DNA of 64,000 bases from a virus: the IMG/VR virus record IMGVR_UViG_3300046703_000335, positions 88,336-152,335 of that record. One strand, 5' to 3'. Made by a program: the position numbers and the translations under genes. Shown one piece after another: positions 8,928 to 30,485 of the stretch (position 1 is its first letter; every line of letters starts with the position of its first letter). The notes under the pieces were generated by a model. It was given only the letters and a program-made list of their open reading frames with translations, made no database searches and was not told where the DNA came from.

Positions 8928-8930
8928 TCT

Positions 8931-9575
8931 TTAAAAACCTCTATCCAATAAAAATGCTGGTATTGGGTCTGCTTCAGCTCCCCGCATACCTGTAACTCCT
9001 TGTACACTAAAAGATTCTAAGCCTGTATAGCCTACCTTGCCCGTGACACCTTGAATACCCGTGATCCCGATACTACCAGTTTCACCTATCATCCCTGTGA
9101 TACCCTTATACCCTTCTTCGCCTTTATTACCTTGAGGAGTATAGTTACCATAACCATTATAAACTTCGATATCATTTTTAGTGAGGGCTTTAAATGCTTT
9201 AAGATTTGAACTACCATCCTGCTGCAGTTTTACCAATATCAGAGGCACTTTTCCAGATAAGTTATCAAAAACTTTTACATCCCCGAAACTTTTTTTATTA
9301 TAGGTGATGCTGGGTAAAACTTCTAACTGTTTTGTCTTATTAAGAACTATGAGTACATAGAGGATATCATTATAGTTATTAAATATTCTTCTTGATGTCC
9401 CCAGAACATATTGAAGAACAAGCTGTGCTACATCTACTCTAAAGCTACTAATTACTATCCACTTATTGTCAACAATTACAGAACCACCCTTTATAAAAAC
9501 AATGTTTTCACCATGTTCTCGGGTATCTTTAAGGGACGCAGAAAAATCTTTTTGATTCTTAGATAAAAAGGTCAT
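8931..9575 (-). CDS. Collagen-like tail protein, paralogue 2
   Basis: The 214-residue protein parallels the preceding one: GSVIVDNKWIVISS, then DILYVLIVLNKTKQ, then PLILVKLQQDGSS, followed by Gly-x-x repeats (about 148-205: GITGMIGETGSIGITGIQGV). It ends in about 15 residues rich in Pro and Leu. The pair is a clear duplication, now well diverged. It probably forms trimeric rods on the tail. No ribosome site precedes the ATG; the recurrent motif stands 12 bases upstream. The following gene starts after 3 bases. Confidence 0.85.
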   Translation of the reverse strand: MTFLSKNQKDFSASLKDTREHGENIVFIKGGSVIVDNKWIVISSFRVDVAQLVLQYVLGTSRRIFNNYNDILYVLIVLNKTKQLEVLPSITYNKKSFGDVKVFDNLSGKVPLILVKLQQDGSSNLKAFKALTKNDIEVYNGYGNYTPQGNKGEEGYKGITGMIGETGSIGITGIQGVTGKVGYTGLESFSVQGVTGMRGAEADPIPAFLLDRGF

Positions 9576-9587
9576 GTTAAGTATAAG

Positions 9588-9602
9588 TTATTAAGTGATT
9601 AT
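9588..9602 (-). promoter_or_regulatory. Copy of recurrent 15-base intergenic motif (between the two collagen-like genes)
   Basis: The minus strand reads ATAATCACTTAATAA, 6 bases after the TAG of the first collagen-like gene and 12 bases before the ATG at 9575. That start has no Shine-Dalgarno site. Function is unknown. Confidence 0.45.
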
Positions 9603-9608
9603 TATTAT

Positions 9609-10256
9609 CTACACCAGTACATCAAAGGGGATGTAAATATCCCAGTTTATACCTGTCATGCCTTTAAGTCCCTTATCCCCTAATTTTGCATTAACTAAAG
9701 GCCCTGAGCTACCTGTTCCTCCCACATAACCTGTATATCCTTTGAATCCCCTTAACCCTGTTATCCCTATCATCCCAGTTTCTCCGGATATGATACTATC
9801 TTCTCCTACAATTCCCTTAAGATTTTTATCTGCAATATTACCTGTACCTGAAAAGAAAATAATATTCTCGTTCTTTACTGGTTTATGCCCGTAGATGATA
9901 TCTAATGTACCATCTTGAACAAGAATCAATCCTATAAGAGGTAACGCAGTAAAAGTATCCGGGGGTGGTACTGCAGATAGAGTAGTAAAAAGAACATGAG
10001 TACCCTCAAGTACTGTTACCCCATTATTTGGATCTAAACAAATAAGGAGATATACTGCATAATTTCTGTCTTTAAAAAATCTTGTTCTATTTCCGACTAC
10101 GACACTTGTGATATAATCTCTGATTTTAAAAATAGTTCCGGAAAAATTGATCCAGGCATTATCTATGACGAAAGAACCTGCATTAATACGAATAGCATCG
10201 TTTGATAATATAGGAATAGATTCTGCTGATATTTTTTCTGATTTTTGTTTTAACAT
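9609..10256 (-). CDS. Collagen-like tail protein, paralogue 1
   Basis: I choose the ATG at 10256, which has AAGAGGCATTTTATG, over an earlier in-frame start at 10346 that would overlap the previous gene; this gives 215 residues. Residues 1-120 form a conserved attachment domain (GSFVIDNAWINFSGT, then YAVYLLICLDPNNG, then PLIGLILVQDG) shared with the following gene and, more weakly, with the 369-residue protein at 22 kb. Residues about 140-200 are Gly-x-x repeats with many TG (GETGMIGITGLRGFKGYTGY). Collagen-like triplets in phages usually build trimeric stalks. No head domain follows, only 10-15 residues. Function in fibre assembly is inferred. Confidence 0.85.
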   Translation of the reverse strand: MLKQKSEKISAESIPILSNDAIRINAGSFVIDNAWINFSGTIFKIRDYITSVVVGNRTRFFKDRNYAVYLLICLDPNNGVTVLEGTHVLFTTLSAVPPPDTFTALPLIGLILVQDGTLDIIYGHKPVKNENIIFFSGTGNIADKNLKGIVGEDSIISGETGMIGITGLRGFKGYTGYVGGTGSSGPLVNAKLGDKGLKGMTGINWDIYIPFDVLV

Positions 10257-10299: not shown

Positions 10300-12498
10300 T
10301 TATATTTTATATTTAATCTTAATCCCGACATTATTACGAGAAGCATTTACTTTATCACTTAAATACATTAATATATCAGGTTCCGGGGCAATATCAGGTG
10401 TAGCTATCCCAGAAACAATAATATAGTGGACTTTTGTTTCTGAATCACTATTGAAAGAGCTACTGGCAACTAAAGTAACCGTATACTCTCCAGGTGAGCT
10501 ATAAAAATGTATAGGATTTTGTTCTGTTGAAAAATGAGAATCTCCAAAATCCCAATACCAGGATGAGATATTACCTTTTGATAGGTCAATAAATTGAGCT
10601 GATAAAGTTGAATATCCCGTCCTTGGTTCTGCAAAGAAATCTGCAGTAGAAAATACCGTTATATAATTAGTTTTTGTCTCAGTATCACTTGCTTCACTAT
10701 TATAGGCTATTAAAGTTACTGTGTAATTATTTGCATCTGTATATATATGCACTGGATTCTGTAGAGTAGAATGAAGGGAACCATCCCCAAAATCCCAATC
10801 CCAGAAAGTAGGCTCACCTAATGACTGATCTGTAAAATGCACTGTTAAATCTGCTGGGCCTACCTGGTTATTAGATGAAAAATCTGCTACCATATCAACT
10901 GATATATCGTGGGCGACAGTAGCTTCATTAGTCCCATCATTAACAATTAATATAACTGTATGTACTCCAGCTTGAGTATACACATGAATGGGATTTTGAT
11001 CTGTAGAATGAGAAGAGCCATCACCAAAGTTCCAATTCCATGATATAGGATGACCTAATGATTGATCTGTAAATTGCACTAATAAGTTAGCAGGCCCTGA
11101 TGAGGGGGTGCTAATAAAATCAGCTATTAGTGGGGGTGCTACGGTGATATAGTCGGGTTTTGTTTCAGTTGATGTGGAATAGCCATCTGAAACAATTAAA
11201 GAGACAGTATATATACCCGCATTTGTATAGCTATGAGCGGGATTTTCTATAAAAGAATGAGGAGTGGCATCCCCAAAATTCCAATCCCAAGTTGTAGGAG
11301 TACCAAAGGATGTGTCCGTAAATTGTACCGGGACACCCCCGGCAACTGATGTAGGTATACCATAAAAGTCTGCGAGTACAGATGCAGATATAGTTATGTA
11401 ATCAGGTTTTATTAGTGTGTCGTATTCAGTCATACTATGGGCAATTAAAGTAACTGTATACGTCCCTGGAGTGAGATAGATATGTGTGGGATTTTGAGCT
11501 GTAGAATGAAGGGATCCATCCCCAAAATCCCAGTCCCAGGAGGTAATTGTCCCGGTAGGTATACTTATATCAGTAAAAGATATAATATTACCTGTAAAAG
11601 CAGATAGAGGTGCACCATAAAACCCTACCAAGATAGAAAGTGTTATCTGTTCATTTCCTGACCAAGGAGACAAAAGTAACAAAGAGCTATTTACCGATCT
11701 CACTCTATAATAATATGTCCCGGTAGCAAGAACAAAATCAGAGATAGCTATAAGAGGGGTAGATATTGATACAGGTAATGGGAATGTTGGATTAGTATCC
11801 CTATCGATAATATAGCTATCAGCGTCTACAACAGCATTCCAACTTAAAGATATCTCATTTGTATCCCCTACTTGAGATACATTAAGATTTAAGGGGGTAG
11901 CAAGAGTATAACTCTCAATATAAACATTTGGTGGTGATGCTACATCTAAATAAGTTATCTCAAGAGCAGTCCTGTCACTATAAGAATAGATATCAAATTG
12001 ATTTAATCGAGAACCCCCCCAATTTAGGTCACCTAATACTGGAGGATCTGATAATCTTATATTCTCGTACCCAATTGATTTAAATTCATTTGTATTATAT
12101 AGAGCAGCTATTCTTACTGGTGACAAATTACTTATAAAAACACTAATAGAATTTATATCAGTAGTGATATTTAATTTAGAATATGTAAGTACTGGTATGG
12201 AAGCTGTATAGGGCTCAAATTCATATAAGGACAAATTATCTTGGAGATCTACTATCCATACCCAAAGTCTATTTGAATCTATAGATAGATCCAAATTTAA
12301 AGCAGCAGTAAGTACGTAACTTTTTACAATTAAAGCATCTAACTCATGACGAGAACCACCGTACTCTTTTAAAAATAATCTACTATACCCTAATTGTAAA
12401 GTCCATAGAGTACCCTTAGCAAGTATACCTTGAGGCTGGGATTCAATTCCCAAGGTACTTGCAGGATATTCAATTCTATCAGATGATGGTATACTCAT
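10300..12498 (-). CDS. Tail fibre with FN3 and five PKD domains, tail type B
   Basis: The 732-residue protein has an N-terminal beta-rich domain (1-200, not recognised). A fibronectin type III domain follows at about 202-288 (ISLSWNAVVDADSYIIDRDT, then YYYRVRSVN). Five PKD domains stand at about 291-373, 374-454, 456-535, 537-616 and 617-697, each with W-x-W-[DN]FGD and a Y-T-V-[TS]-L strand. The C-terminal 35 residues are the type B tail (ATPDIAP...NNVGIKIKYK) shared with the 117-residue protein. FN3 and PKD domains make extended stalks on extracellular proteins. Role: adsorption fibre or decoration, inferred. The start follows the previous stop by one base (TAAtATG). Confidence 0.87.
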   Translation of the reverse strand: MSIPSSDRIEYPASTLGIESQPQGILAKGTLWTLQLGYSRLFLKEYGGSRHELDALIVKSYVLTAALNLDLSIDSNRLWVWIVDLQDNLSLYEFEPYTASIPVLTYSKLNITTDINSISVFISNLSPVRIAALYNTNEFKSIGYENIRLSDPPVLGDLNWGGSRLNQFDIYSYSDRTALEITYLDVASPPNVYIESYTLATPLNLNVSQVGDTNEISLSWNAVVDADSYIIDRDTNPTFPLPVSISTPLIAISDFVLATGTYYYRVRSVNSSLLLLSPWSGNEQITLSILVGFYGAPLSAFTGNIISFTDISIPTGTITSWDWDFGDGSLHSTAQNPTHIYLTPGTYTVTLIAHSMTEYDTLIKPDYITISASVLADFYGIPTSVAGGVPVQFTDTSFGTPTTWDWNFGDATPHSFIENPAHSYTNAGIYTVSLIVSDGYSTSTETKPDYITVAPPLIADFISTPSSGPANLLVQFTDQSLGHPISWNWNFGDGSSHSTDQNPIHVYTQAGVHTVILIVNDGTNEATVAHDISVDMVADFSSNNQVGPADLTVHFTDQSLGEPTFWDWDFGDGSLHSTLQNPVHIYTDANNYTVTLIAYNSEASDTETKTNYITVFSTADFFAEPRTGYSTLSAQFIDLSKGNISSWYWDFGDSHFSTEQNPIHFYSSPGEYTVTLVASSSFNSDSETKVHYIIVSGIATPDIAPEPDILMYLSDKVNASRNNVGIKIKYKI

Positions 12499-15825: not shown

Positions 15826-17163
15826 CTATGTGTTAGTAATTGTTATATACACTTTATAACCTGATGCTATGGCATTAGTTAATGAGTTATCTGATTGAAA
15901 CGTTTTAGTTTCTTCATACTCAGCCGTCTTTAATAAAGATATTTGATAACCAGAGGCTATGGCATTAGTTAATGAGTTATCTGATTGAAATGTTTTAGTT
16001 TCTTCATATTCAGCCGTCTTTAATAAAGATACTTGATAACCTGAAGCTAATGCATTAACTATAGAATTGTCCTTAGCAGTTACATTGTAAATATTATCAG
16101 CTAAGGTAATTAATGCAGGAAAACTAAATATATATATTTGCTGATAATTTACTGGGTCTGTAATAAATGGCATAGTAAATAAATGAGTATGCACCGTACA
16201 ACGCAAGTACTTCAAACCAACAGTCCCTATCCAGGGAACAACCCTATATGCAAGATAATATGCATTAATGTGCGGAATTGTATATGTAGCTTCTACGGTA
16301 TAGGTACCAGAATTATATTTAAGTAAATCATATGTGACTTCTCCATATGCATATGGAAGATTAATCCCAGCAATATCCGGCAGTATTATATAAGGTTGAC
16401 TATTTATAAAACAAAAATCAGGAGTATTTAAAGGATATTCATTACTTGTAAGTAAATTATAAGATGTGTATCCCGCAGATAAAGCAACTACAACAGAATT
16501 TTCAGGATCATTATTTAAAGTAATGTTACTTACTGAAATATTTATATTAGGTAAATAATCCCATGTTAATTCATTAGTGGGATCAAACATACGGATATAA
16601 CTAATACTGTCTTTTTTATAGGACAAATATATTTTATTGGTACTTACATCATAATATGCTTCGGGTTCTTCCCCGGTATTTAATCGATATTCATAATCAT
16701 CCCATACCCAATTAGACCCTGATAATATCTGCTTTCTTATATAGACATAATACCCCGTATGTTCAACCTCTTCAATTCTTGTAATAGATGAATTACCTGA
16801 TTGTACATATGCCAATACAATAAAAGTAGCAGCTTGAGCCATAGTCAAGATATTAGCAATATGCAATATACCAACATTATCAGAATAAACTACCTGATAG
16901 GTATTAGGAGAGGCAGTTAATGTACCAGCTCCCCATGTAACAGAAGACCCATTAATAGTCCCTGAACCAGCTTCAATATTTACTATAAAAGAGGGGGCTG
17001 TAAATGTTATACGAGAAAAGGAACTTTTTCCTGTAGTTAAAAATTTTGTATAAAAAATCATTTGCTGCCCAGTAGGCCCTACTATGATACTAGGATGACT
17101 ATCAGGTCTCCTGTTATCCGTATCAAAAGTGATCTTTTGAGTTGTAGAAGGTAGATATGCCAT
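15826..17163 (-). CDS. Fibre-region protein with C-terminal 30-residue tandem repeats
   Basis: The 445-residue protein is beta-rich and not recognised. The N-terminal two thirds have Tyr/Ser/Thr-rich strands with little Lys, like a propeller or fibre domain. The C-terminal end carries a 30-residue repeat, SLLKTAEYEETKTFQSDNSL plus TNAIASGYQI, in two nearly identical copies with partial copies on both sides. A degenerate copy, ENSVVVALSAGYTSYNLL...EY, occurs near residues 225-245. The repeats are the youngest-looking in the window. The function is unknown; its place between PKD fibres points to adsorption. No ribosome site is seen; the recurrent motif stands upstream. Confidence 0.8.
   Translation of the reverse strand: MAYLPSTTQKITFDTDNRRPDSHPSIIVGPTGQQMIFYTKFLTTGKSSFSRITFTAPSFIVNIEAGSGTINGSSVTWGAGTLTASPNTYQVVYSDNVGILHIANILTMAQAATFIVLAYVQSGNSSITRIEEVEHTGYYVYIRKQILSGSNWVWDDYEYRLNTGEEPEAYYDVSTNKIYLSYKKDSISYIRMFDPTNELTWDYLPNINISVSNITLNNDPENSVVVALSAGYTSYNLLTSNEYPLNTPDFCFINSQPYIILPDIAGINLPYAYGEVTYDLLKYNSGTYTVEATYTIPHINAYYLAYRVVPWIGTVGLKYLRCTVHTHLFTMPFITDPVNYQQIYIFSFPALITLADNIYNVTAKDNSIVNALASGYQVSLLKTAEYEETKTFQSDNSLTNAIASGYQISLLKTAEYEETKTFQSDNSLTNAIASGYKVYITITNT
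15861..16040. repeat. 90-base tandem repeat inside the 445-residue gene
   Basis: Two copies of a 90-base unit stand at 15861-15950 and 15951-16040 with only a few base differences, followed by a partial third copy from 16041. The period is a whole number of codons (30 residues), so copy number can change without a frameshift. Confidence 0.9.
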
Positions 17164-17245: not shown

Positions 17246-17575
17246 TTAATCGAATATAAGCGAGGGACCTTGAACCCTGGTAAATCCTCCTCCATTTTCA
17301 ATTGTAGAAGAGATCTCTGAAGTATTCTGCGTAGCAATAGTTATATACTGCGCTTTAGAAATTGAGTCATTCAATAACCCTTCATAGGCAATAAGAGACA
17401 CAGTATAATTACCATAATAGTTGTATGTATGTGAAGGATTCTGATCCGTTGAATGTGGGCTACCATCCCCAAAATCCCAATCCCACGAAGTTATCTCTCC
17501 AATAGAAAGATCAGTAAATTGGACGGTAAAAGGGATATAACCAGAAGTTTTATCAGCAGTGAAATTTGCAACCAT
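17246..17575 (-). CDS. Single-PKD protein with C-terminal tail type A
   Basis: The 109-residue protein holds one PKD domain (about 1-85: SWDWDFGDGSPHSTDQNPSH, then YGNYTVSLIAYEG) and ends GGGFTRVQGPSLIFD. This tail matches the end of the preceding 803-residue fibre (GTGFVRELGPTLIFD). Its PKD is also very close to the last PKD domains of that protein, so a local duplication is likely. It starts 9 bases after the fibre stop without a strong ribosome site. It may cap or replace the last unit of the fibre. An 82-base gap with a copy of the recurrent motif follows. Confidence 0.8.
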   Translation of the reverse strand: MVANFTADKTSGYIPFTVQFTDLSIGEITSWDWDFGDGSPHSTDQNPSHTYNYYGNYTVSLIAYEGLLNDSISKAQYITIATQNTSEISSTIENGGGFTRVQGPSLIFD

Positions 17576-17584
17576 GATATACTT

Positions 17585-19996
17585 TCAATCGAATATTAAA
17601 GTGGGACCCAATTCTCTTACAAATCCAGTCCCGGATTCTTCTAACCTAATATTTATGTAGTGTTCTTTTATTACTCTATTATAGGTAATACCATCCGAGA
17701 CTGTCAATATAACTGTATAAATTCCCTGACTATAATAAGCATGCACAGGATTCTGATCCGTAGAATGAGAAGAACCATCCCCGAAATCCCAATCCCAAAT
17801 AGAAACAATCCCAATAGATAAATCTGTAAATTGTATAGGAGTACTTATAAATCCTATTCTTGGGTCACCTATAAAATCAGCAACAATATTTCCGGATACA
17901 TAAATATAATCTATTTTTGTCTCAGAATCGCTACTCGAAGTATTTGAAGCTGTTAAACTAACTGTATAGTATCCTGCTACCGTATATAAATGAATAGGAT
18001 TCTGATCCGTAGAATGAAGAGATCCATCACCAAAATCCCAATCCCACGAAGTAGGACCACCTATAGATAAATCTGTAAATTGTACAGACATTCCTGGAAC
18101 ACCACTTCTGGGGATAGCTGAAAAATCAGATAGCATATTTACAGTTATATATCCAGGTTTTGTAATAGTATCTGAAGTAACCCCACGAGTACTTATCAAA
18201 GTAACCGAATAAACTCCTGCTATCTCATACAGATGGGTAGGATTCTGGTCCGTAGAATGAAGAGAACCATCTCCGAAATCCCAATCCCAACTTGTAGGAT
18301 CACCTATAGATAAATCTGTAAATTGTACTGAAAGTTCTGCGAAACCTGATGTTATATCAGCGCTAAAATCTGCTACAATTATTATTGTGGACTCTGTCTC
18401 ATAAGCACCCATATCTGGAGGTGATTTTCTTAGAATGCCTATGATATCATCAATAGGGGTATTCGCGTTAATTAACCCTGTCGCATAAGATGGGGAAGTA
18501 TTTAGGAGTCTCAGTGGATAAGGGGGAACTCCTTCAAACTGAGGATTTGCAGTTATTTCTGTTGGATCAAGTGCTATTGGGTCACCATTATTCGCGTAAT
18601 TGTATCCTGCAGCATTATTGTTACTATGAATAAATGTATGTATGTTGCTTGGATTTTCAATATATAGATCAAGATACAATCCTAATCCTGAATCAACGAT
18701 ATTATTGAAAATTAAAAATGATTCAATGTAACCACTTGAATCATCCGCATAAACATAAACTGCATTTGTGCTTGCACCCAGATTATAAAAAGTATTGTTA
18801 ATAACATTTACATTCATTATCTCAGAATAATACTCAATATCCATGCAAGTGAAATCTGTTGCATTATTCATAAAAACATTATTAAATATATTAACAAATC
18901 CTGGGCAATTATCTACAATAAAATACATCACCCCATCAAAAGTATTTTTATAGACACTGATTGGAACAATTGTACCAGATATTGTTATACTTGATGTCCC
19001 CGTATTACTTACAAATTGATTATTTCTTATCGAAATAGATTCTGTACAACCACCATCTATATAAATTGGGTCACTAAAATTTCTGAAAGTATTATCATAG
19101 ATATCTTTTAAAGGATTGATAAAGGATTGGTATGCAGTCTGATTAAGTCCTTCTATATCTAAATTTCGGGGAGTTAATCCTACGAATGCCTCAGAATGAA
19201 GACTCCATGATTTCTGACTCCCATAACTGGTTATGATAGCGCCATTAAAATTAAAACCATTATATATCTTGTCACCATTAACTACTGTAGGTTCTGTGAT
19301 AGTTGAAGATACATATATAACATCTGAATTGATAATGTCTGTATTATAGCTTCTCCCTACAGCGCCAACTTCCTCACTTACAACTACAGTACCATCAGGG
19401 GAGGGGTTCACCTCGTATATTGCAATTTTAGGTGGTGTTCCTAATGCAAATAAACTTGACCAACTATTAACACTATGGGTATCCGTAGCATATTTAGTGC
19501 CGTCCACATAAAATTCTATAGTTGTCGCAGTAATCAAAAAAGTATATAACCGGCTTACTCCTGAAGTAAATTTAGGAAATGTGGCTAATACCGTAGCTCC
19601 CTTAAGTATCTGGCATGTGTAGGGTATTACTGGATTACCTGGGAGTAAATCTGCTGATGAGATAGTACTAAAAGAATAGTTCCCCAAATAAAAACGTGTT
19701 GGACCAAATACTGTACCTGATGTAGCTACATAGAATCCAGGAAAAATCGCATAAGTAGTAAGGTCTTTTTGTGTAATTGTGCAGCTTATCGCAACAGCTT
19801 GATCTATAATTGGAAATGGAGGAATCCGTACAGGACTGAAAGTTACATCATAACTGGTATTAGTAACAGTTACATTTATAGGTGTAAATTCATAACCTTG
19901 TAATTGCTTGGCTAACCTGTTAAGTGATAATGCTGCATTTTCTTCAGTATTATATGGGAAAGTCTCCGTACCAGTATCTTTTATATAATAAGCCAT
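17585..19996 (-). CDS. Tail fibre with beta-helix (choice-of-anchor-Q type) and three PKD domains
   Basis: The 803-residue protein begins with a jellyroll-like region (about 40-200, with LYTFLITATTIEFYVDGTKY). A right-handed parallel beta-helix follows at about 230-533, with Asn-rich rungs such as SISIRNNQFVSNTG, VNIFNNVFMNNA and NVNVINNTFYNLG. It closes with TSPSYATGL...PPDMGAYE, the end signature of choice-of-anchor-Q / pectate-lyase-like surface proteins. Three PKD domains stand at about 541-620, 621-701 and 704-784 (SWDWDFGDGSLHSTDQNP). The last 16 residues, GTGFVRELGPTLIFD, form tail type A, shared with the next gene. Beta-helices can bind or cut polysaccharide; no catalytic set is visible. 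Domain choice suggests uptake from bacterial surface proteins. Likely an adsorption fibre. Confidence 0.87.
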   Translation of the reverse strand: MAYYIKDTGTETFPYNTEENAALSLNRLAKQLQGYEFTPINVTVTNTSYDVTFSPVRIPPFPIIDQAVAISCTITQKDLTTYAIFPGFYVATSGTVFGPTRFYLGNYSFSTISSADLLPGNPVIPYTCQILKGATVLATFPKFTSGVSRLYTFLITATTIEFYVDGTKYATDTHSVNSWSSLFALGTPPKIAIYEVNPSPDGTVVVSEEVGAVGRSYNTDIINSDVIYVSSTITEPTVVNGDKIYNGFNFNGAIITSYGSQKSWSLHSEAFVGLTPRNLDIEGLNQTAYQSFINPLKDIYDNTFRNFSDPIYIDGGCTESISIRNNQFVSNTGTSSITISGTIVPISVYKNTFDGVMYFIVDNCPGFVNIFNNVFMNNATDFTCMDIEYYSEIMNVNVINNTFYNLGASTNAVYVYADDSSGYIESFLIFNNIVDSGLGLYLDLYIENPSNIHTFIHSNNNAAGYNYANNGDPIALDPTEITANPQFEGVPPYPLRLLNTSPSYATGLINANTPIDDIIGILRKSPPDMGAYETESTIIIVADFSADITSGFAELSVQFTDLSIGDPTSWDWDFGDGSLHSTDQNPTHLYEIAGVYSVTLISTRGVTSDTITKPGYITVNMLSDFSAIPRSGVPGMSVQFTDLSIGGPTSWDWDFGDGSLHSTDQNPIHLYTVAGYYTVSLTASNTSSSDSETKIDYIYVSGNIVADFIGDPRIGFISTPIQFTDLSIGIVSIWDWDFGDGSSHSTDQNPVHAYYSQGIYTVILTVSDGITYNRVIKEHYINIRLEESGTGFVRELGPTLIFD

Positions 19997-20020: not shown

Positions 20021-20374
20021 TTATCTTGTCACTCTTTTTATCTCTATCCCAACATTCCTTTTGTTAACAATACCTATACCCCATAAATACACTTTTTGTT
20101 GCAGTATCGGCGCTATATCATATGTAGCACTACTATTAACTTGGATATAGCCATTTTTTACTGTTGTATTTTGATCCCCTGTATAAGATATAGTTAATGT
20201 TACTGTATATATCCCTGGATGAGAATAATAGTGTGTTGGATTTCTTTCTGAAGAAAAATGTTTATCCCCAAAGTTCCATAACCAATTTTCAATAATACCT
20301 GTGGAATTATCTATAAAATGCACAGTTAACGTTGATGTGCCATTTCTTGGGGAACCTGTAAAATCAGCCTGCAT
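20021..20374 (-). CDS. Single-PKD protein with C-terminal tail type B
   Basis: The 117-residue protein is one PKD domain (residues 2-80: WLWNFGDKHFSSERNPTHYY, then PGIYTVTLTISY) plus a 35-residue tail. The tail reads ATYDIAP...YLWGIGIVNKRNVGIEIKRV and resembles the end of the 732-residue protein at 10.3-12.5 kb (ATPDIAP...YLSDKVNASRNNVGIKIKYK). The shared end may dock both proteins to the same partner. No strong ribosome site is visible; it starts 25 bases after the previous stop. A role as the terminal piece of a fibre is inference. Confidence 0.8.
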   Translation of the reverse strand: MQADFTGSPRNGTSTLTVHFIDNSTGIIENWLWNFGDKHFSSERNPTHYYSHPGIYTVTLTISYTGDQNTTVKNGYIQVNSSATYDIAPILQQKVYLWGIGIVNKRNVGIEIKRVTR

Positions 20375-20399: not shown

Positions 20400-20912
20400 T
20401 TATATCTTGTCTAAAGTCATATTTATACCTACAGTATAAGACCCATAGTCAAGGTAATTATGAGAGATAGATCGACCAGTTGCTCCATGAGTATCTCCTA
20501 AATCCCATTGCATTCCGGTATATTGATATCCGGTAGGAGCTAAACTATTATCATCAAGATATACTAATAAGGGTTTTTCTCCTCTTAAGGGTTCTCCAGA
20601 AAAATCCATTTTACCAAGAACCACAAGATGGCTGTCTATATCATCTATCTTATACCAATCATTACCATTATTCATAATAGAAAAAATAACTTTATGATAT
20701 CCATAAGTACGGTATGTGTGCTTTGGTTTTGGGATGTCACTATTAGTACCATCTCCAAAATCCCAATAAAACTTTTTAGGCTCAAAACTTAATCCAGTAT
20801 ACCCAAATACATATTCTGATGGTATAACATCTATTATAGGAAAGCTCTCAGATATTAAGCCACCCGTGTCAGGATCAATTTTACTAATTAATACTATACC
20901 AGTCTCAGCCAT
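20400..20912 (-). CDS. Two-PKD-domain fibre protein
   Basis: The 170-residue protein consists of two PKD-like domains: about 23-99 (FYWDFGDGTNSDIPKPKHTY, then GYHKVIFSIMNNG) and about 100-166 (MQWDLGDTHGATGR, then YGSYTVGINMTLDK). PKD domains are Ig-like stalk modules of surface proteins. It has a good ribosome site (GAGAGGTTTACCATG). It lacks the C-terminal tail peptide seen in the following 117-residue protein. With its neighbours it looks like one piece of a longer fibre spread over several genes. A structural stalk role is the simplest reading; no binding site can be named. Confidence 0.8.
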   Translation of the reverse strand: MAETGIVLISKIDPDTGGLISESFPIIDVIPSEYVFGYTGLSFEPKKFYWDFGDGTNSDIPKPKHTYRTYGYHKVIFSIMNNGNDWYKIDDIDSHLVVLGKMDFSGEPLRGEKPLLVYLDDNSLAPTGYQYTGMQWDLGDTHGATGRSISHNYLDYGSYTVGINMTLDKI

Positions 20913-20937: not shown

Positions 20938-21594
20938 TTACAGAGTACCAAGATACCCCGCTTTACCTCTACCTTCAGCATAATAGGAAGCTATGTCTTT
21001 ATTAACCGCCCATATTCTTAATTCATCCATTTTCATAGTACTATTAAGTAATATATCAGTCCCGGTACCAGAGAATGTTATAGGGCTACTATTCTCAAAT
21101 CTTATAACTTCAAGTTCTTTCAAATAATAGGAAAAACTTCCTACATACATTTTTCCAGTATATCTGTTAAAACCAATAAACGCCCAATTACCTGGTTCAG
21201 CTACTTTATTTTTGGATCTAAAGATATTATCATTATCCTCAAATACCAGATGAAAAGACTGATCAAGATATAATCTCCAGTAACATCCTGAAATTGTATC
21301 AAAAGATTGTGCTACGATGAAATCCGGAATGGGGATGTATGTGTCAACAATTATATAGCTACTTTTAGTAACTGAGTATTGATCTGCATTCGTTTGAGCT
21401 ATTAAAATTACATCATATTCCCCAGGATAATAATAAGTATGGTTTATTGTCTGAAGATCACTTCCCTCAACAATAATACCATCTCCGAAAATCCATTTTC
21501 TATGTACTATAGTCAAATCCGTAGGATCATTAAAAGTCGTAGATAGATATCCAGATCCTGTCCTGTATGTTGCAACTATGTCCGGTTGTGTCAT
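20938..21594 (-). CDS. PKD domain plus LamG second half
   Basis: The 218-residue protein has a PKD domain at about 4-85 (HRKWIFGDGIIVEGSD, then YYYPGEYDVILIAQT). From about 88 it reads like the second half of a LamG/concanavalin jellyroll: YWRLYLDQSFHLVFEDND, GNWAFIGFNRYTGKMYVGSF and MKMDELRIWAVNKD. The complementary first half lies in the preceding gene, whose stop is 5 bases upstream of this ATG. The two halves may associate, or the second half may stand alone. No ribosome site is evident, so translation is probably coupled. The role is likely a tail-fibre head that binds surface glycans; this is inference. Confidence 0.82.
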   Translation of the reverse strand: MTQPDIVATYRTGSGYLSTTFNDPTDLTIVHRKWIFGDGIIVEGSDLQTINHTYYYPGEYDVILIAQTNADQYSVTKSSYIIVDTYIPIPDFIVAQSFDTISGCYWRLYLDQSFHLVFEDNDNIFRSKNKVAEPGNWAFIGFNRYTGKMYVGSFSYYLKELEVIRFENSSPITFSGTGTDILLNSTMKMDELRIWAVNKDIASYYAEGRGKAGYLGTL

Positions 21595-21599
21595 ATTAT

Positions 21600-22709
21600 T
21601 TATGCTATCGTTATTTGTTCAGATTTTATATGAGATCCTGCTGAGTTAGTCGCTGTCAATTTAACCACATATATTCCAGTAGATCCAAAAGAGTGTGTTA
21701 TTATTCCAGAGTTATAAATATACCCATCAATATCCCATGTAAGTGTCTTTGGTAAATACAACGAAGCATCCATAAATCTTATAGGGTATCCTACTATACC
21801 AGTATAAGTTTCATAAATAAAATCAGCTATTGGGGATTGATTAACATTTATCCATGCCTGTATAGTTCCTGTAAATCCGATATATTTATTATTACGATAT
21901 CCGGATATCCCTCCACGATACTGTATACTGTGACAATTATCTATGATGCCTTCTTCAAGAGTAAGAACTGATTGACCTTGATCAATTATCTCTATAGAAG
22001 TACTTGACCCAGTTTCGTTATTAAAAATTATCCCTGTTAATCCTGCTCCAGTTGCACCCCACACAAGATCTCTTTCGTAAGAAGAATAATCAGTTAAATT
22101 TACATCATTAGTTTTAAATTTCAGATAAAGCAAGAGATCTAAATTTTGATATACTCCTGTTTCTCCTTGGATACCTGTAGATCCCATCATACCCACACAA
22201 GTGTCCCCTTGGATACCTGTATACCCAATTGGGCCTTCTATACCAGTATAACCCTGATAACCTGTATACCCGTAAAATCCTGTATCACCTACTTTACCTT
22301 GAGCACCTCTATCACCTTGTATAAATTCCGAAGTAATCGCAAAGGTGGACATTTTTGAATATAAATTTATCTTTTTTACTTCAAAACTGGATAAAGATTG
22401 CTGGAGTATAAACTGTCCAATAGGTAGGGCATTAGTTAAAGCATCACTATCGCATGAATCTATGTATGATACAGATTTCTTAACTGTATCAAAGATAAAT
22501 TTTCCAGTATCTATAGAATAATAGATATTTACAGCGGCATAATATCTTTTTTCCATTGGGATAATAAAAAAAGATTGTTGTCTCAATGGTAAAACAATAT
22601 TTACAATAGATACAATCTTATTATTATATAGTACATTTCCTATATTAATTATATAATCTATAGAGCCGTCAAAATTTTTACGCTCGAATATGTTATTTGC
22701 ATTATCCAT
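21600..22709 (-). CDS. Collagen-like fibre protein with LamG first half and PKD domain
   Basis: The 369-residue protein has four parts. Residues 1-120 form an N-terminal domain similar to those of two further collagen-like proteins (8.9-10.3 kb). Residues about 132-186 are Gly-x-Tyr repeats such as GFYGYTGYQGYTGIEGPIG. About 188-292 resemble the first half of a LamG/concanavalin-like jellyroll (LLLYLKFKTNDVNLTDYSS, then FTGTIQAWINVNQ). About 294-368 form a PKD domain (TLTWDIDGYIYNSG, then GIYVVKLTATNSAG). The LamG second half is missing here but appears in the next gene. Collagen-like stretches form trimeric stalks; LamG domains often bind sugars. The start has only a weak GGAAA site. The gene belongs to the adsorption block. 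Confidence 0.85.
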   Translation of the reverse strand: MDNANNIFERKNFDGSIDYIINIGNVLYNNKIVSIVNIVLPLRQQSFFIIPMEKRYYAAVNIYYSIDTGKFIFDTVKKSVSYIDSCDSDALTNALPIGQFILQQSLSSFEVKKINLYSKMSTFAITSEFIQGDRGAQGKVGDTGFYGYTGYQGYTGIEGPIGYTGIQGDTCVGMMGSTGIQGETGVYQNLDLLLYLKFKTNDVNLTDYSSYERDLVWGATGAGLTGIIFNNETGSSTSIEIIDQGQSVLTLEEGIIDNCHSIQYRGGISGYRNNKYIGFTGTIQAWINVNQSPIADFIYETYTGIVGYPIRFMDASLYLPKTLTWDIDGYIYNSGIITHSFGSTGIYVVKLTATNSAGSHIKSEQITIA

Positions 22710-22715
22710 AAGATA

Positions 22716-25700
22716 TTATTTCCGAACAATAGGCTTATTAATTAGTCTATACATCGCTATTGATGTATCAACATTTTCTACATATCCTGGAAGATATTCT
22801 GTACCGGTATCCTCATAAAATCCAGTTTTGTTTTCATTTCTTGCTCTATAAGTTTTACTAAATATAACCAGTATAAGCTCCCCCCTCAAGAAAGGATACG
22901 TCATTTTAGATCTTATTCGAGCCAAAAATGGTATAAAAACTTTTCTCGGTGTAGATATAGTAAGATCTTCACAATGAGATATAATATCAGAAGAACATTC
23001 CCTATAATATGGTCTACCTAACTTATCCCCCACATTATTGGGTTGAGAAAAAGTAAGATCATCCCCTACATATTGAGAAACTATAGCGGGTAATTTCACA
23101 AAACCCGTATCAATTCTGAAGTTAGAAAAATCAAGATCATCTACATTAGAAAAAAAGTTATCATTAAATACTTCATCCGAATTAACTGGGATATGTTCTG
23201 CTGGTACAGCATAGGGTTCCCCGGGAATAAGATCACTGGATCCCGTTCCTAAATTTGTAATATAGACAAAATCTGAATTTTTAATAATCTCAACGGTCAT
23301 CTCACTCGGTAAATTAGCTACAGACTGGTAAGGAACATATTTATAAAAGACCGATGAGACCGGGGTATTGGTGATACCCGGAAGAGTGTTTAACTTAATC
23401 AAAAGAGGAATAAGAATAGTACCTGATGTAACTGACTTTCTACCATCAAAAGTCAATACAATAATAGATGTCCCTAAACCTGTAACACTGGCAATAGGTA
23501 TCATTGAATAATAATCTACACCAGTAGAAGGTTTATACCATGCATACTGCTGCATAGTATTATCTCGTACATTACAAGAACTTATACCCAAAATTGAGCC
23601 ATTAACTAACCCACTCGGTACGCCAGGACCATCTATTATAGAAATAGTAGCATTTGACCCACCGATAGTACTGGCTTGATATAGAACACCTACATACATG
23701 CCTGAAACTGCTCTGGATGCAATATTGAAATTTGCGGAGAAAGAAGTCCTTAGAGCTTCCTGATTTTCACCAGTTGCCTTTACCGTAATACCTATATTTG
23801 GATTAGTCCCTCCAACTGCATCACCAGTAACAATAGCTTCCAGAACAACTTCAACAACAGAATTTCCAGGAATAGTAAAAGCAGGATCAAGATATATAAC
23901 CAAGTTGCTTGTATCGGAGTCCTCCCGATCTCTCATAGTGAGATTATTCTGATAATCAATCCCAACTTTATAAACTGATCCATTTACATTTTTAATCGAT
24001 TGTACCCCATAAACTGCATATCCATTAATATTTTTAGGAATACGCAGAATATCTGTCACAACAGTAGTCTTAAGATAATAATGGTAGATAACCAAAGAGC
24101 CTTTATACTGCTGACCCTTAAACTTTTTAAAACCCCTTTGATAATCTTGATCACTATGAATTTCATACCCAACCAAGTCATATAGAGCTCGATCATCCGG
24201 ATTATCTTGAATAATTTTTGCAGAATATAATTCAGTATAATCATGGTATCCCGGGACATTTTCAGGTAATTCTTCCAGGATCTTTATAGGTATTCTGGAA
24301 TTTATACCATTGAAATATATTGAGGTATTTGGATTACTCGACACTGGTCTATATTTTATTGCAATAGGATTCTGTGGAACTCTACTAAGACCTACCTTAG
24401 AATAATCCATATAATTTGCTGTTATAACATAAGTCACACCTTCAAGATCTCCCCCGGCAGGAGCAAAATTATCTTCAATATGAAAAATAACTTTATTTGT
24501 ACCATATCCTTCGAAAGTTCCATTTACTGGTTCATTAGTAAGTACTCCATCTCGACTTATATATGCTGAATAATATGAGGGATCATTATGGTATAATCCT
24601 ATATCGATAGGACCAAAAGTTAATTCTGCAGTAGTTATTTGGATATTAGGGTCAAGGATTTTTTGATCTGCCACGATAACAGCTGCAGAAGATACTCCTC
24701 CTCTTACTAAGTTCTGGTTATCTGTGATACCCGTATAAGTATCTACCATCATCATAATAGTACCATATTGAAGACCCTGCTGATCTTTATCACTCAAATT
24801 AGTATTGAGCGTATTAGCTAATAGCTTTTCAAGATTTTTTTCCAGGAAATAGCTATAGGATTGGATATTTATCTGTCTACGAATATCAACGATATCATCC
24901 TGGATAATATGGTTGTATGTCAATCCATCCGGTCTTATTGCCCCGATATTAAAATCTGTAGAGCCATTTATATTGCTATCTACATTAAATGCTGCTGAAT
25001 TTCTTCTGGTAACAAAAAACATAGGAATAGCCCAACTATACCCGTCATAGGTGCTACGGCATCTTGAACGCCATAATCCATAATCACCATTCTCTTCACC
25101 CATATTTACAAAAGTATAACTGCCTGCATCATTAGAATTAAGATTAGGACCAAGGCTATATACAAAATCATGACCAATACCAGCTTCAGTATATATGTAA
25201 GGGTCAACTCCTTCAGCTATTCTTATTCGATATTGAATTTGAACTCGTTTAGTAGTTTCCGTACCAACTTGAGGATCAATGATATTATCAGGGAGATATT
25301 CTTCCGCACCAGAAAGTACGTTACCTTCAGGATATATTCTTCCTACAGATTTTGTTATTAAATCTGTATCCTGAGTTTCAGCAGACCCATTCGAATAATA
25401 TGCTATATACCCGTCTGATCCGCAGAACCATCCCTTATTAGTCTCAAATAGAAATGCATCTTTAAGGTCAGCACCGATACCTAATTCAAGTATTGTCCAT
25501 TTAGCCCCACTATTGCTACTATACAATACGATACCATAATCACCAGCAATCCATACTTTATCTTCAACTGAAAAGGATATTTGAGCTGGAGTAATGCTAG
25601 AAAAACTTCCATAAGATGGTCTAAAATCAGAAGGCTGACCAAAGGGTTCATAATCTATAGCTGCTTCAAAAACCCTCACCTTTTCACGTTCACTGTTCGG

Positions 25701-27122
25701 TAAAGATGCATCAGATAGTTTATAAGGGCTGAGTATCTGATTGATTGCATTTCTAAGCTCTTCCGAATTTGCATACTGATCGAGATCAAGAACATTAATG
25801 TAATTGATATTATCCTGTACTCCTGAATATTCCAAAACAAGTGAATTTGGATACGTATTTGGAGAAATCTTATATATAAGATTTTTAAAGAAATTTCTGG
25901 AGCTAGGGTAAACAGCAATAGTGAATTTTATAGCAAACTCACGCTTGATATAAACTTTATTTAGTTTGTTAACTCTATCCGGAAATATCTCAGATATAGT
26001 CTTATATGCACCATTGTACCAGATTCTATCTGACATCTCAGACCATGAAAAGCCACTATCAGAAGTACGGAAAATTCTTCCATCATCAGAAGATGCTACT
26101 CCATCATTTAAATTAAAAAATGCCATAGAAGTAATATTTGAAGTTATAGTAACACCTAATGCCACATTAATCATATTAAATCTCTGCCAGATATTACCTC
26201 CATCTTTTGTCATAAGGAGAGTGCCCTTATCTCCGGAAGCCCATCCTACAGCGACATCATAGAAGTATATAGTGCTAAGATTTTCAGTAACACTTGAAGT
26301 CTGTGACGAGAGTACAAAATTTGTACCATCTATAGATAGAAGAATAGTTCCATTATCCCCTACTATACAGACATTCTGGTCATTTATAATAAAAATATTA
26401 TTCAAATTATCTACTATTGGAGTTTCAATAGAAAACCATGTTTCTCCCCCATCCAATGTCTTGATAATCACACCACCATTACCAACAGCATATCCCAAGT
26501 AAAGATCAAAAAAACTTACCTTATTAAATTTAACATTAACTGGGGTCTCAATAGATATCCAATTTATTCCCCCGTCAATAGTTTTAAGAATGGTACCAGT
26601 ATCTCCTACAGCCCAGCCAATATTTTCATTATACATCCAGATACCATTAAGAGTACTTACTTTAGATATAGGCTGCGGTTTTGCAACTCCTTCTAATGAT
26701 TCTGATGTAGTGCCCTGAGGAGAAACTATAGATCTCCAAACTTCAAGAAATACTCCATCTACTCTAGCACCCGATCGTATAGAATCATCAAAAGCGACAT
26801 TATTGACATGACGTAATGGAGTATTGGTATTAGTAACATATACAGGCCATCCATTTACCATAGCCACTTCAGGTTTGGCACCATTTGGATCCTGAGTATA
26901 GAAGCTATTATTAAAATCATTAGAGGTATAAACCGGTCGATAGCTTAACCAACCCGAGGGGAGATGAGCTGTAGATTTCCGGGTAAGTATCTCTTGAAAT
27001 TCTTGAGCATTATTGAGCTCAACATCTAATGCAGGTTTACCCTCTTGAAAAACGACTTTATCAAAAGCATACCCTAAACCCTCATAAGAGGTTGAGATGT
27101 CTTCTCCATGGTTAATAGCCAT
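22716..27122 (-). CDS. Baseplate/fibre scaffold protein with inserted YCF48-like Asp-box propeller
   Basis: The 1468-residue protein has a scaffold shared with the gene at the left edge. Residues 20-135 contain VVFQEGKPALDVELN, LPSGWL, VNGWPVYV and FLEVWR; residues about 622-770 contain ETTKRVQIQYRIR, WAIPMFFVTRR and QDDIVDIRRQ. Between them stand blades of the YCF48/BNR type: GWAVGDTGTILKTIDGGINW, GYAVGNGGVIIKTLDGGETW and three more (about 155-365). Two further blades, VWIAGDYGIVLYSSNSGAKW and GWFCGSDGYIAYYSNGS, stand at about 520-580. This totals seven blades with a 140-residue insert after blade five. Asp-box propellers often bind or cleave glycans; no sialidase active-site set was recognised. 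A receptor-binding or decoration role at the baseplate is inference. Confidence 0.85.
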   Translation of the reverse strand: MAINHGEDISTSYEGLGYAFDKVVFQEGKPALDVELNNAQEFQEILTRKSTAHLPSGWLSYRPVYTSNDFNNSFYTQDPNGAKPEVAMVNGWPVYVTNTNTPLRHVNNVAFDDSIRSGARVDGVFLEVWRSIVSPQGTTSESLEGVAKPQPISKVSTLNGIWMYNENIGWAVGDTGTILKTIDGGINWISIETPVNVKFNKVSFFDLYLGYAVGNGGVIIKTLDGGETWFSIETPIVDNLNNIFIINDQNVCIVGDNGTILLSIDGTNFVLSSQTSSVTENLSTIYFYDVAVGWASGDKGTLLMTKDGGNIWQRFNMINVALGVTITSNITSMAFFNLNDGVASSDDGRIFRTSDSGFSWSEMSDRIWYNGAYKTISEIFPDRVNKLNKVYIKREFAIKFTIAVYPSSRNFFKNLIYKISPNTYPNSLVLEYSGVQDNINYINVLDLDQYANSEELRNAINQILSPYKLSDASLPNSEREKVRVFEAAIDYEPFGQPSDFRPSYGSFSSITPAQISFSVEDKVWIAGDYGIVLYSSNSGAKWTILELGIGADLKDAFLFETNKGWFCGSDGYIAYYSNGSAETQDTDLITKSVGRIYPEGNVLSGAEEYLPDNIIDPQVGTETTKRVQIQYRIRIAEGVDPYIYTEAGIGHDFVYSLGPNLNSNDAGSYTFVNMGEENGDYGLWRSRCRSTYDGYSWAIPMFFVTRRNSAAFNVDSNINGSTDFNIGAIRPDGLTYNHIIQDDIVDIRRQINIQSYSYFLEKNLEKLLANTLNTNLSDKDQQGLQYGTIMMMVDTYTGITDNQNLVRGGVSSAAVIVADQKILDPNIQITTAELTFGPIDIGLYHNDPSYYSAYISRDGVLTNEPVNGTFEGYGTNKVIFHIEDNFAPAGGDLEGVTYVITANYMDYSKVGLSRVPQNPIAIKYRPVSSNPNTSIYFNGINSRIPIKILEELPENVPGYHDYTELYSAKIIQDNPDDRALYDLVGYEIHSDQDYQRGFKKFKGQQYKGSLVIYHYYLKTTVVTDILRIPKNINGYAVYGVQSIKNVNGSVYKVGIDYQNNLTMRDREDSDTSNLVIYLDPAFTIPGNSVVEVVLEAIVTGDAVGGTNPNIGITVKATGENQEALRTSFSANFNIASRAVSGMYVGVLYQASTIGGSNATISIIDGPGVPSGLVNGSILGISSCNVRDNTMQQYAWYKPSTGVDYYSMIPIASVTGLGTSIIVLTFDGRKSVTSGTILIPLLIKLNTLPGITNTPVSSVFYKYVPYQSVANLPSEMTVEIIKNSDFVYITNLGTGSSDLIPGEPYAVPAEHIPVNSDEVFNDNFFSNVDDLDFSNFRIDTGFVKLPAIVSQYVGDDLTFSQPNNVGDKLGRPYYRECSSDIISHCEDLTISTPRKVFIPFLARIRSKMTYPFLRGELILVIFSKTYRARNENKTGFYEDTGTEYLPGYVENVDTSIAMYRLINKPIVRK

Positions 27123-27125
27123 ACG

Positions 27126-30100
27126 TTAAAATCCCCGTTTGTTTACTTTTTCATCAATAATTTCTATATCCCTCAGACTAATATTATCTATATCAAGATA
27201 TTCTATTTCAGAGGTGTCTAAATCACCAACTGGATTTTCATCTGCTGGATAATATGTGAAATATGAAACTTTATAGAATTTAGTTTGAGGAGGTGCACCA
27301 TCCGTAGTACTTACTATGATTTTTCCATCTGATTGAATATAAGCTCTTCCCGCTCCCTTTGATACATCTATGGGTGAAGACACAAGAGTGAGAGGAATAT
27401 TGTTTTCATAAACTCCTCTGAAATAATTTGGGTCTCCGCCATTATCCGATGTCTTATAAGTTAGAACTTTATCAATACTCCTATAAGATGTTATACCTGA
27501 AGCACTGGCTTTATTATACGTCTCAAATGTAGCATAGCCAACGGGGTCAAGTGGGATAAAAGAGCCATTCCTTTTCATCATTCGAGTAAAAGGTATTCTG
27601 ATATCCTTCACACCATCAACACCACGTACAACACCTGACACAGAACTTTGTGTTAATGTCTCTCCCATTTTAAGTCGTGAAACATAGTTTGAAATAGCGG
27701 TCACAATTCTTGACTTAAGAAGATTAATATCAGTACCAGTTTTTCGTACTATTACAAAACTTATATCCGCAAAATTTCTTATAGATTGTTTAGTAATAAC
27801 ATCGCCACAAGCATGCTTCATTATATCAATTTTTGCCTGAACTTGCTGTATTAAATTATTAGTAATAAAAGTTACATTAAAATTCTCACTAGCCCTATAT
27901 GAAACAGCTACTCTGTCTCCATGTCTTATCTTACTATGATATAAAAGTTCAAGGTAAGTATATGCAATATCACTCCCCAGATCAATAGCATAATCTATAT
28001 CTTTTAGATAGGCAGTCCCGCCACCTATAGGAGTAACGACTATTGAAGCAGCATCTACTCCTTTTAAAACCAATTTTGCTGGAGTATCATAGAGCATATC
28101 ATGCTCTTCATTTGATATAGTAATAAATTCCTGGATATTATCGGATTCATTAAAAAAGAATTTCACAGCATCTTTAGCAATACTTGAATTACCATTGAGT
28201 ATAGGGTCTTCATATTTTACCAAGCGATATTTTGATGTATCAATAGTTGCTCCTGCAGAAGTAGTTACAGACACTATTGAGTCTACTGGCTGCTGAGAAA
28301 GAACCAGCATATTTGAACTTCTATATAAATATGCTACTTCAACTATATCAAAAGTAGCCAAACCTATATTTAAATTCTGCTGATTTTTATCTAATAAAAT
28401 TGTGTCACCTTCCCCAATTATTTGTAGGTTAGATAAAGAATAATCTTTTCCTCGTGTAATATTTCTTACTTTATTTACTGCCACTATTGGATTATCTACG
28501 CTAACTTTTTGATTCTTACTTCTTAATCTGAAATCTGTTGCATCCGAGATATAAAATGTTTCCCCGACTTTATTACCGTAGGAATCAGTTGGGTATTCAT
28601 AGCTAAAAGCAACTTGATCAACCATTTGCATAAACTTAGTACCTCTAACATGCACATCAACCTTACCACCTATGTGACGATTATCTACAGGATCATAATC
28701 CCTCATCATTAGAGAATCCCCAGCTATTTCCACTCGTGCCTGTACAACCCCAGGAACATCCATAGCTGTTGAATTATACCCACCTTCTGTTCCTGAATCA
28801 TATTCTAATTTTGCAACTTTTATCCTATCTGTAAGCTGCTGATTTGTCTCCCTATCATTACCATATCTTGTTGGAATTTCATTTATGACTCGTAAACTCG
28901 GAGAAACGTTTAATGCAACAGTGATAGCTTCTGCTGGGACATCCCCTGATTTCCCTGGTGATTGGGCTACTATATCTGTTTGAATCTCATAACGCTTCAA
29001 TGTAGGATTATAATAAGTATCTGGGTTAGCTGCGCTTAGTATCTTAGTACCTACTACTGCAAAAGATATTGAACCAATACTACTGCTATAATCAGGGGCT
29101 GTTGATACAATGGTATTATCGGCGATTATAATATCATTTGTAGGACGAATCTCTGTATAGAAAAGTACTAATCCAGTGGATTTAGTAGATCCTTTTCTTT
29201 CAAGATTATAGTTAGAAGCATATTTATTAAACTGTTCATCTATAAGTAATTGAAGATTACTCGAATCGGTAAGACCAAGAGCTGCTGCTAAAGCTCTCTT
29301 ACGAGGATTAGTAGAAATTGGGTCACTTATACCATCCCCATCAGCATCATCAAAAGCTATTAGAGTATCTAAAGATAAACACGAGAAAATAAAATCCTGG
29401 ATAACATATACTTTTTCAAATTCAAGAGCCACAGGATCAGAAATATCTCGGATAACTGATCCTGGAACAATATTAATCTGATCATTATTGACCATCATCT
29501 CTCTTGATATAGAGAAAAGAATATCACTCCTGGATCTTTTAGGTAAATTTTGATAATCAGTTGTATATGTAAGAAACTGTCCTTCTAATTCTTGAGAATA
29601 TGGGCTCTCTACTAATTGATTTAGAGCTTTATCAAAAGTTCTCACTGTTGTTACTATATAGTATATGATATCACTACTGATTGTTTGACCATCTGATAAA
29701 AAGATATTTGATATTTTATTTTGTTGGACTAATTTAGCCAATACAGTTTTATCTAAATTAAATGTATAGTATTCAGTAGAAACTTGATTACTTCTTGTAG
29801 TAGTTACCGTGATATTATTGACAGTATCCTCGTAAGATGTGGTATTCAATAGCACATCTTCAGTTTCTGATTCATCCACATTTGTAATAGGAACATCATT
29901 CATAAGTACATATTCTGTACCAGGAACCATACTCATATAAAAGTTACAACCAGAAAAATCATTATCAAGATTAAGTACAATACTGGAAGAAGGTATAAGA
30001 ATTTTTAAATAATCTTTATATCTTCTCATCTTAATACCTGTAACAGGATTAGCAGATGCAGTGATATTATTCTCTGTAGTTATATTCGCAATAATCCTGG

Positions 30101-30485
30101 AATATACACTGGAATCTAAAACTTCTCCGATATGTGAGATTACGTTATTTACCTTATACGCCTTGAAATCGATAGTAAGCACGTCATCAACTAATAGCTC
30201 AAAAATACCTTCAGAAAAAAATGACCAAGGAATAGAGGTAACAACTGTATTTGATGTCCCTATACCCATATTATCAGTGGATTCTATGGACCAAATCCCA
30301 GGAACTCCTCCACGATCAATTTTATATCGATATTTTACTATGATTATTGTGCCCTGTTCAATTTCCCCGGGGACAACTGGGACATATCCTGATATAGTCT
30401 GTATGAGAGCATCAGAATAATAAACCTGATCCCCTGTGGCAGACCAGTTCGTTTTAGGATATAAGATTATAGGTGCAGGAATCAT
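27126..30485 (-). CDS. Baseplate J-like wedge protein (gp6 / gpJ type)
   Basis: The 1119-residue protein carries the conserved baseplate-J core at about 510-615: SPGKSGDVPAEAITVAL, then GNDRETNQQLTDRIKVAKLE, then GGYNSTAMDVPGVVQARVEI and a closing GGKVDVHVRG strand. J/gp6 subunits form the wedge ring that joins the baseplate and drives its change of shape. Before the core, about 379-388 read DDADGDGISD, a calcium-loop pattern (D380, D382, D384, D388) like thrombospondin type 3 or EF-hand loops. The large N-terminal part is beta-rich and not recognised. A stretch near 920-975 resembles the helical C-terminal J domain (CGDVITKQSIRNFADISFVI). The gene starts three bases after the previous stop. 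Confidence 0.87.
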   Translation of the reverse strand: MIPAPIILYPKTNWSATGDQVYYSDALIQTISGYVPVVPGEIEQGTIIIVKYRYKIDRGGVPGIWSIESTDNMGIGTSNTVVTSIPWSFFSEGIFELLVDDVLTIDFKAYKVNNVISHIGEVLDSSVYSRIIANITTENNITASANPVTGIKMRRYKDYLKILIPSSSIVLNLDNDFSGCNFYMSMVPGTEYVLMNDVPITNVDESETEDVLLNTTSYEDTVNNITVTTTRSNQVSTEYYTFNLDKTVLAKLVQQNKISNIFLSDGQTISSDIIYYIVTTVRTFDKALNQLVESPYSQELEGQFLTYTTDYQNLPKRSRSDILFSISREMMVNNDQINIVPGSVIRDISDPVALEFEKVYVIQDFIFSCLSLDTLIAFDDADGDGISDPISTNPRKRALAAALGLTDSSNLQLLIDEQFNKYASNYNLERKGSTKSTGLVLFYTEIRPTNDIIIADNTIVSTAPDYSSSIGSISFAVVGTKILSAANPDTYYNPTLKRYEIQTDIVAQSPGKSGDVPAEAITVALNVSPSLRVINEIPTRYGNDRETNQQLTDRIKVAKLEYDSGTEGGYNSTAMDVPGVVQARVEIAGDSLMMRDYDPVDNRHIGGKVDVHVRGTKFMQMVDQVAFSYEYPTDSYGNKVGETFYISDATDFRLRSKNQKVSVDNPIVAVNKVRNITRGKDYSLSNLQIIGEGDTILLDKNQQNLNIGLATFDIVEVAYLYRSSNMLVLSQQPVDSIVSVTTSAGATIDTSKYRLVKYEDPILNGNSSIAKDAVKFFFNESDNIQEFITISNEEHDMLYDTPAKLVLKGVDAASIVVTPIGGGTAYLKDIDYAIDLGSDIAYTYLELLYHSKIRHGDRVAVSYRASENFNVTFITNNLIQQVQAKIDIMKHACGDVITKQSIRNFADISFVIVRKTGTDINLLKSRIVTAISNYVSRLKMGETLTQSSVSGVVRGVDGVKDIRIPFTRMMKRNGSFIPLDPVGYATFETYNKASASGITSYRSIDKVLTYKTSDNGGDPNYFRGVYENNIPLTLVSSPIDVSKGAGRAYIQSDGKIIVSTTDGAPPQTKFYKVSYFTYYPADENPVGDLDTSEIEYLDIDNISLRDIEIIDEKVNKRGF

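Follow-up and report, generated by a model that had tools for sequence, protein, structure and literature searches.

Two adjacent genes of a large uncultured phage, here called A and B, each encode about one half of a single compact domain of the LamG-like, sugar-binding type, and our comparisons indicate that their products are likely two subunits of one baseplate-adjacent tail-fibre assembly that would build this domain together. Domains are usually regarded as units that neither evolution nor annotation divides. In this case a domain of about 230 residues is shared out between two genes throughout a family of large uncultured phages, with the cut always in the same loop and a PKD domain at each cut end. 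Searched as single proteins, A and B gave no LamG match in Pfam or PHROGs and only PKD and collagen were matched, which is a warning that annotation pipelines miss such domains.

Gene pair, neighbourhood and relatives

The window, by which we mean the whole 64,000-nt stretch of DNA that was analysed, comes from a virus record of 210,408 bp, and all genes discussed are on its minus strand. Both open reading frames lie where the initial annotation had placed them. Gene A (369 aa, 21600-22709) encodes a conserved fibre N-terminal module (residues 1-125, 22335-22709), a collagen-like Gly-X-Y repeat (residues 131-186, 22152-22319; Pfam Collagen at 30.8 bits and PHROG tail-fibre families), the N-terminal half of the LamG-like domain (residues 188-291, 21837-22148), and a PKD domain after the break (residues 292-369 plus the stop codon, 21600-21836). 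The N-terminal module is kept in all relatives and, from its position beside the baseplate genes, probably serves in baseplate attachment. A gap of 5 nt (21595-21599) separates the stop of A from the start of gene B (218 aa, 20938-21594), which encodes a PKD domain before the break (residues 1-85, 21340-21594) and then the C-terminal half of the LamG-like domain (residues 91-218, starting at about residue 90; 20941-21324). No terminator-like site was found between A and B or elsewhere in the region, and promoter-like sites around the two genes were not above chance.

Reading in the direction of transcription, the pair comes immediately after baseplate genes. These include a baseplate gene at 27126-30485 (Baseplate_J, 47.6 bits), and a 1468-aa baseplate-adjacent protein is encoded at 22716-27122 (YCF48-like repeats, PF14870, 70.8 bits). 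Repeats of the YCF48 type (photosystem II assembly factor) are an unexpected module for a phage structural protein.

Relatives were sought with A, with B, with alignments of both, and with the 1468-aa neighbour protein. The same arrangement was found in 17 virus records (that of the window included) and in one MAG contig; the 17 records represent 15 distinct viruses, given the near duplicates 3300028837/3300008516 and 3300009082/3300027792. When the joined-domain profile was run over whole records, both halves were found wherever either was present, with no extra and no intact copies. The G006 record gave one A half as two pieces side by side, and the A half of the Altiarchaeales bin is divided between the ends of contigs. 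Neither half was detected by this profile in more distant viruses, such as L029, L034 and L036, in which the 1468-aa protein has a relative. Even the most divergent members, with pairwise identities as low as 28% in the A half and 23% in the B half, have the break in the identical loop and PKD to either side of it. Contig WJJK01000007.1 (L106) comes from a bin that bears the label Candidatus Altiarchaeales. Its version of the tail-fibre region is about 45% identical, and the contig belongs either to a virus infecting this archaeon or to a phage and was binned wrongly.

The split may also belong to a larger pattern, in which a single long fibre is divided at PKD linkers into the whole downstream series (A, B, a two-PKD protein and later proteins), the LamG split being one joint among several. 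This reading extends our best explanation and does not exclude it. In most relatives the gene after B encodes two PKD domains, and in L100 an 874-aa protein fuses the B half, a further LamG-like domain and a C-terminal GPDIIFS motif, but a fusion of A with B was not found. We give such a long fibre a real, though lesser, chance of being correct.

Profile evidence for a single domain

The view that A and B together build one LamG-like domain was assessed on joined sequences, in which WINVNQ led directly to the LamG strand of B, the intervening stretch having been removed. Laminin_G_3 matched these joined halves across the junction, with E values of 0.043 in the window and 0.0083 in the relative L005, and Pfam gave no Laminin_G_3 match to the halves in swapped order. 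For ten relatives joined at a slightly different point, Laminin_G_3 was found in 2/10 joined sequences and in no swapped one. The joined sequences scored at most 16.7 bits, under the Laminin_G_3 gathering cut-off of 27.6 bits, and for this reason we call the domain LamG-like and do not file it as a member of PF13385. Because the Pfam matches fell under the curated cut-off, profile-profile comparison with hhalign was used.

The joined profile aligned collinearly with intact LamG domains of the same viruses (probability 81). On this template the halves alone were complementary and did not overlap, with A on columns 3-52 and B on columns 60-188. Against a 34-sequence LamG profile, drawn from viruses and from genomes of a GTDB-based collection, the joined profile reached a probability of 94.7 (score 55.6), the B half alone 87.7 (score 40.9, columns 125-230), and the A half alone 6.4 (score 21.5). 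In swapped order, the halves matched both templates solely as two separate hits, weak ones with the same-virus template. A PDB sequence search with the joined and the swapped profiles returned no match.

These results uphold the proposal of the initial annotation that one LamG-like domain is split over two adjacent genes. Its further claim, that joining WINVNQ to the part before YWRLYL gives a complete LamG order, agrees with an alignment that is gap-free at the junction, where no piece is missing: the series PKD-stop-start-PKD sits within one loop, between the strands AWINV and FIVAQS. Intact LamG profiles align on both sides of the break and across the junction, and the opposing possibility of two unrelated, self-complete domains is contradicted by this collinear and complementary match.

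As a control, the alignment columns of the A half were shuffled 100 times and compared with the two LamG templates. The true N-half scored above all 100 shuffles with both templates (55.5 against a maximum of 53.3, and 40.8 against a maximum of 33.5), the margin with the deep, 34-sequence profile being modest. With both halves shuffled, scores did not exceed 25.1 and 20.7. The match of the A half is short, consisting chiefly of the GTIQAWINV strand with the 34-sequence profile and of columns 3-52 with the same-virus template. Since the C-half of B matches LamG unaided, the case for the A half rests on this shorter match. We regard the LamG-like character of the B half as secure, and the identification of the A half with the N-terminal part of LamG as well supported by the profile comparisons.

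Structure predictions

AlphaFold was run on A and B singly, with alignments of 8 sequences. The N-terminal module and the PKD domain of A reached pLDDT values mostly of 60-91, and the PKD domain of B reached 83-95. Residues 118-290 of A, which hold the collagen repeat and the LamG half, remained below 50 when folded alone; this low confidence may be caused by the shallow alignment, and the region includes the collagen repeat. The LamG half of B was predicted as strands in a half-sandwich with moderate pLDDT (69-86), and its last strand region reached 39-62. The structure check proposed in the initial annotation, applied to the single proteins, gave a confident PKD domain in B, no confident fold for the LamG half of A and moderate confidence for that of B. 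This pattern fits a split domain, which we count as weak evidence because the alignment was shallow. A Foldseek search with B against PDB and BFVD returned no LamG fold; PKD, TCR/Ig and fibronectin folds dominated, with poor superposition, and the search gave no information on the LamG half.

It is conceivable that the C-part of B is a shortened, self-sufficient LamG-like domain and that the segment in A, a small domain of its own or a linker, just looks like the first LamG strands. In favour of this are the LamG match of the B half on its own, its pLDDT of mostly 70-86, and the weakness of the A half alone with the two templates (6.4 and 13.7 per cent). However, the A half adds more to the score than any shuffled N-half, aligns exactly to the part of the template that is absent from B, and is always found with B. 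The low values in the last strand region of B, as though partner strands were missing, also speak against a self-sufficient domain, and we consider this explanation unlikely.

PKD domains and peptides at the break

The PKD domains that the initial annotation had placed on each side of the break were confirmed, for B by Pfam and for A by predicted structure. The domain in B scored 33.8 bits (PKD_4), above the cut-off of 27. That in A scored 21.4 bits, under the same cut-off, and is assigned to PKD by its predicted fold, which matched solved PKD domains with a Foldseek probability of 1.00 and a target TM of up to 0.79. Every member found has the A half followed by PKD, and PKD followed by the B half. 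Pfam matched no intein in either protein, and the sequences at the break are PKD domains and not intein halves, which argues against a split intein with trans-splicing.

The short peptides at the two breakpoints (SPIADFI and IPIPDFI) had been considered similar, and a sign of PKD insertion plus gene fission. This part of the initial annotation did not survive the comparison with relatives, from which the resemblance is absent, and the peptides give no evidence for insertion or fission. SPIADF is the first PKD strand and PIPDFIVAQS the LamG strand after the break (predicted strand 90-99 of B), which in relatives reads FIIMQS, LIMAKS or VIAEG. Not being conserved, the breakpoint peptide was ruled out as a duplication scar.

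Separate chains and assembly in trans

In most members A and B are adjacent genes. Among the neighbouring pairs the gap ranges from 2 to 16 nt, B occurs in all three frames relative to A, and B has its own start codon in every adjacent pair. The halves lie apart in three relatives: in L027 two other genes stand between them and the B half ends an 834-aa protein; in L102 a 139-aa gene intervenes and the B half ends a 401-aa protein; and in L100 the B half is inside the 874-aa protein, apart from A. A single A-B chain, produced at the 5-nt junction by readthrough of the stop codon or by a frameshift and giving an intact domain in the virion, seems to us very unlikely. The narrow gap in the window, the lack of a terminator-like site between the genes, and the placement of B in the frame of A in two relatives (L055 and L057) would allow it, but L057 has a second in-frame stop, and in L027, L100 and L102 genes or unrelated domains separate the halves. 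Together with the varying gaps and frames and the start codon of B, this excludes readthrough or frameshifting as a conserved mechanism and makes separate chains the simplest explanation.

Completion of the jellyroll in trans, which the initial annotation had raised as a possibility, is the most likely reading, given that the halves stay paired even when other genes separate them. A and B probably assemble physically in this way. As we envisage it, A would be anchored near the baseplate through its N-terminal module and collagen-like stalk, and would present the first LamG strands. These would end at FTGTIQAWINV, the chain being cut in the loop right after. B would supply the remaining strands, from FIVAQS...YWRLYLDQ to MDELRIW. 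The PKD pair at the ends of the cut loop would probably lie side by side and act as a clamp, holding the chains so that the split jellyroll closes. The finished LamG-like domain could have a surface-binding (lectin-like) function or form a joint in the fibre.

In L027, L100 and L102, B carries extra domains at the cut loop that are, by sequence appearance, beta-helix-like, glycine-rich/Ig-like or FnIII-like. That these extra N-terminal domains are attached at the cut loop points to the cut as a site where modules can be added. A more speculative and on balance doubtful extension is that the cut loop is a purpose-built joint, with the PKD-clamped split jellyroll as a heterodimeric snap connector and the N-terminus of B as a graft point for receptor-binding modules. 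If this were true, the fibre could branch or change specificity with the LamG domain untouched. A natural split domain with a candidate clamp would be useful for understanding fibre assembly, and possibly as a two-part connector for protein engineering.

Selection and origin of the split

Both halves are under purifying selection, with dN/dS (omega) of 0.08-0.30 for the A half and 0.16-0.30 for the B half. A and B thus behave as a split gene, that is, as two conserved open reading frames under selection for one protein unit. It is hardly tenable that recombination between PKD repeats broke a once intact LamG gene and left the two segments as decaying remnants: such repeats are abundant in the region and could promote recombination, but the omega values and the retention of both halves over large divergence in 15 distinct viruses contradict decay.

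A mirror-tree correlation of 0.85 between the halves was rejected as evidence of pairing, because the N-terminal module of A correlates with the B half at 0.90 and the value therefore reflects shared ancestry only.

No relatives of A or B were present among 50,697 phage records (cultured phages) at E <= 0.01. The intact single-gene form, which the initial annotation had suggested looking for in related phages, was not found in the viral contigs, phage records and species genomes covered by our searches, whose sensitivity is limited, and every member already carries both PKD domains and the break. PKD insertion plus gene fission is a reasonable history, which no intact form among the genomes searched supports.

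Other features of the fibre region

Otherwise different proteins of the window (17246-17575 and 17585-19996) end in a common motif, e.g., GTGFVRELGPTLIFD / GGGFTRVQGPSLIFD. C-terminal motifs of this type are also present in L004, L005, L051, L055, L057, L100-L102 and L106, and may be an assembly or attachment tag. A second C-terminal motif, ATYDIAPxxxxxxYLxGxGIxxKxxVGIEIK-like, follows a PKD domain on otherwise differing proteins (20021-20374 and the end of the 10300-12498 protein in the window; 8491-9828 and 9855-12236 in L005). The 445-aa protein at 15826-17163 of the window has a near-identical tandem repeat at its C-terminus (LLKTAEYEETKTFQSDNSLTNAIASGYQ).

When the window was compared with L003, L004, L005, L051 and L053, the gene set downstream of window position 20400 was found to vary even where A and B are 98% identical (window vs. 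L003), as in a swappable receptor-binding cassette. Accessory genes inside the fibre region include, to judge from their sequences, a papain-like peptidase (L101, 8807-9709) and small glycosyltransferase-like proteins (L027, 17127-17651; L026, 17232-17822).

Comparison with known systems

LamG3 domains associated with tail fibres have been reported in jumbo phages (PMC7824862). Once the halves of A and B are joined, their strand order and motifs resemble those of Laminin_G_3 and other concanavalin A-like LamG domains (PF13385). They differ in that the domain is interrupted by PKD-stop-start-PKD in one loop and divided over two genes, its single sequences falling under the Pfam cut-off. The domains at the cut ends resemble PKD (PF18911/PF00801) in sequence and predicted fold; here, however, they are paired at the cut ends of a split domain, where they would act as a clamp.

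Split phage genes whose products reassemble include Aeh1 NrdA, gp43A/gp43B of phage 25 and the T4 topoisomerase gp39/gp60, and activity has been demonstrated for the split products of nrdA and gene 43 (PMC2988022). A and B share with these the partition of a contiguous coding region into two genes, with products that would have to come together. The Aeh1, phage 25 and T4 examples are, however, enzymes split by homing endonucleases or intercistronic sequence, and their intact relatives are known. In A and B the break lies inside a small beta-sandwich of a structural protein with PKD at both cut ends, the junction contains no endonuclease, and an intact relative was not found in the sequences searched. 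Nor did we find, in the open-licence literature, a report of a single small beta-sandwich domain divided between two genes whose cut ends both carry PKD.

Completion of a beta-sandwich with strands of a second polypeptide is familiar from donor-strand complementation in chaperone-usher pili and TasA fibres. In those systems like subunits donate a single strand to one another, whereas A and B are two different proteins, each of which would contribute about half of the domain.
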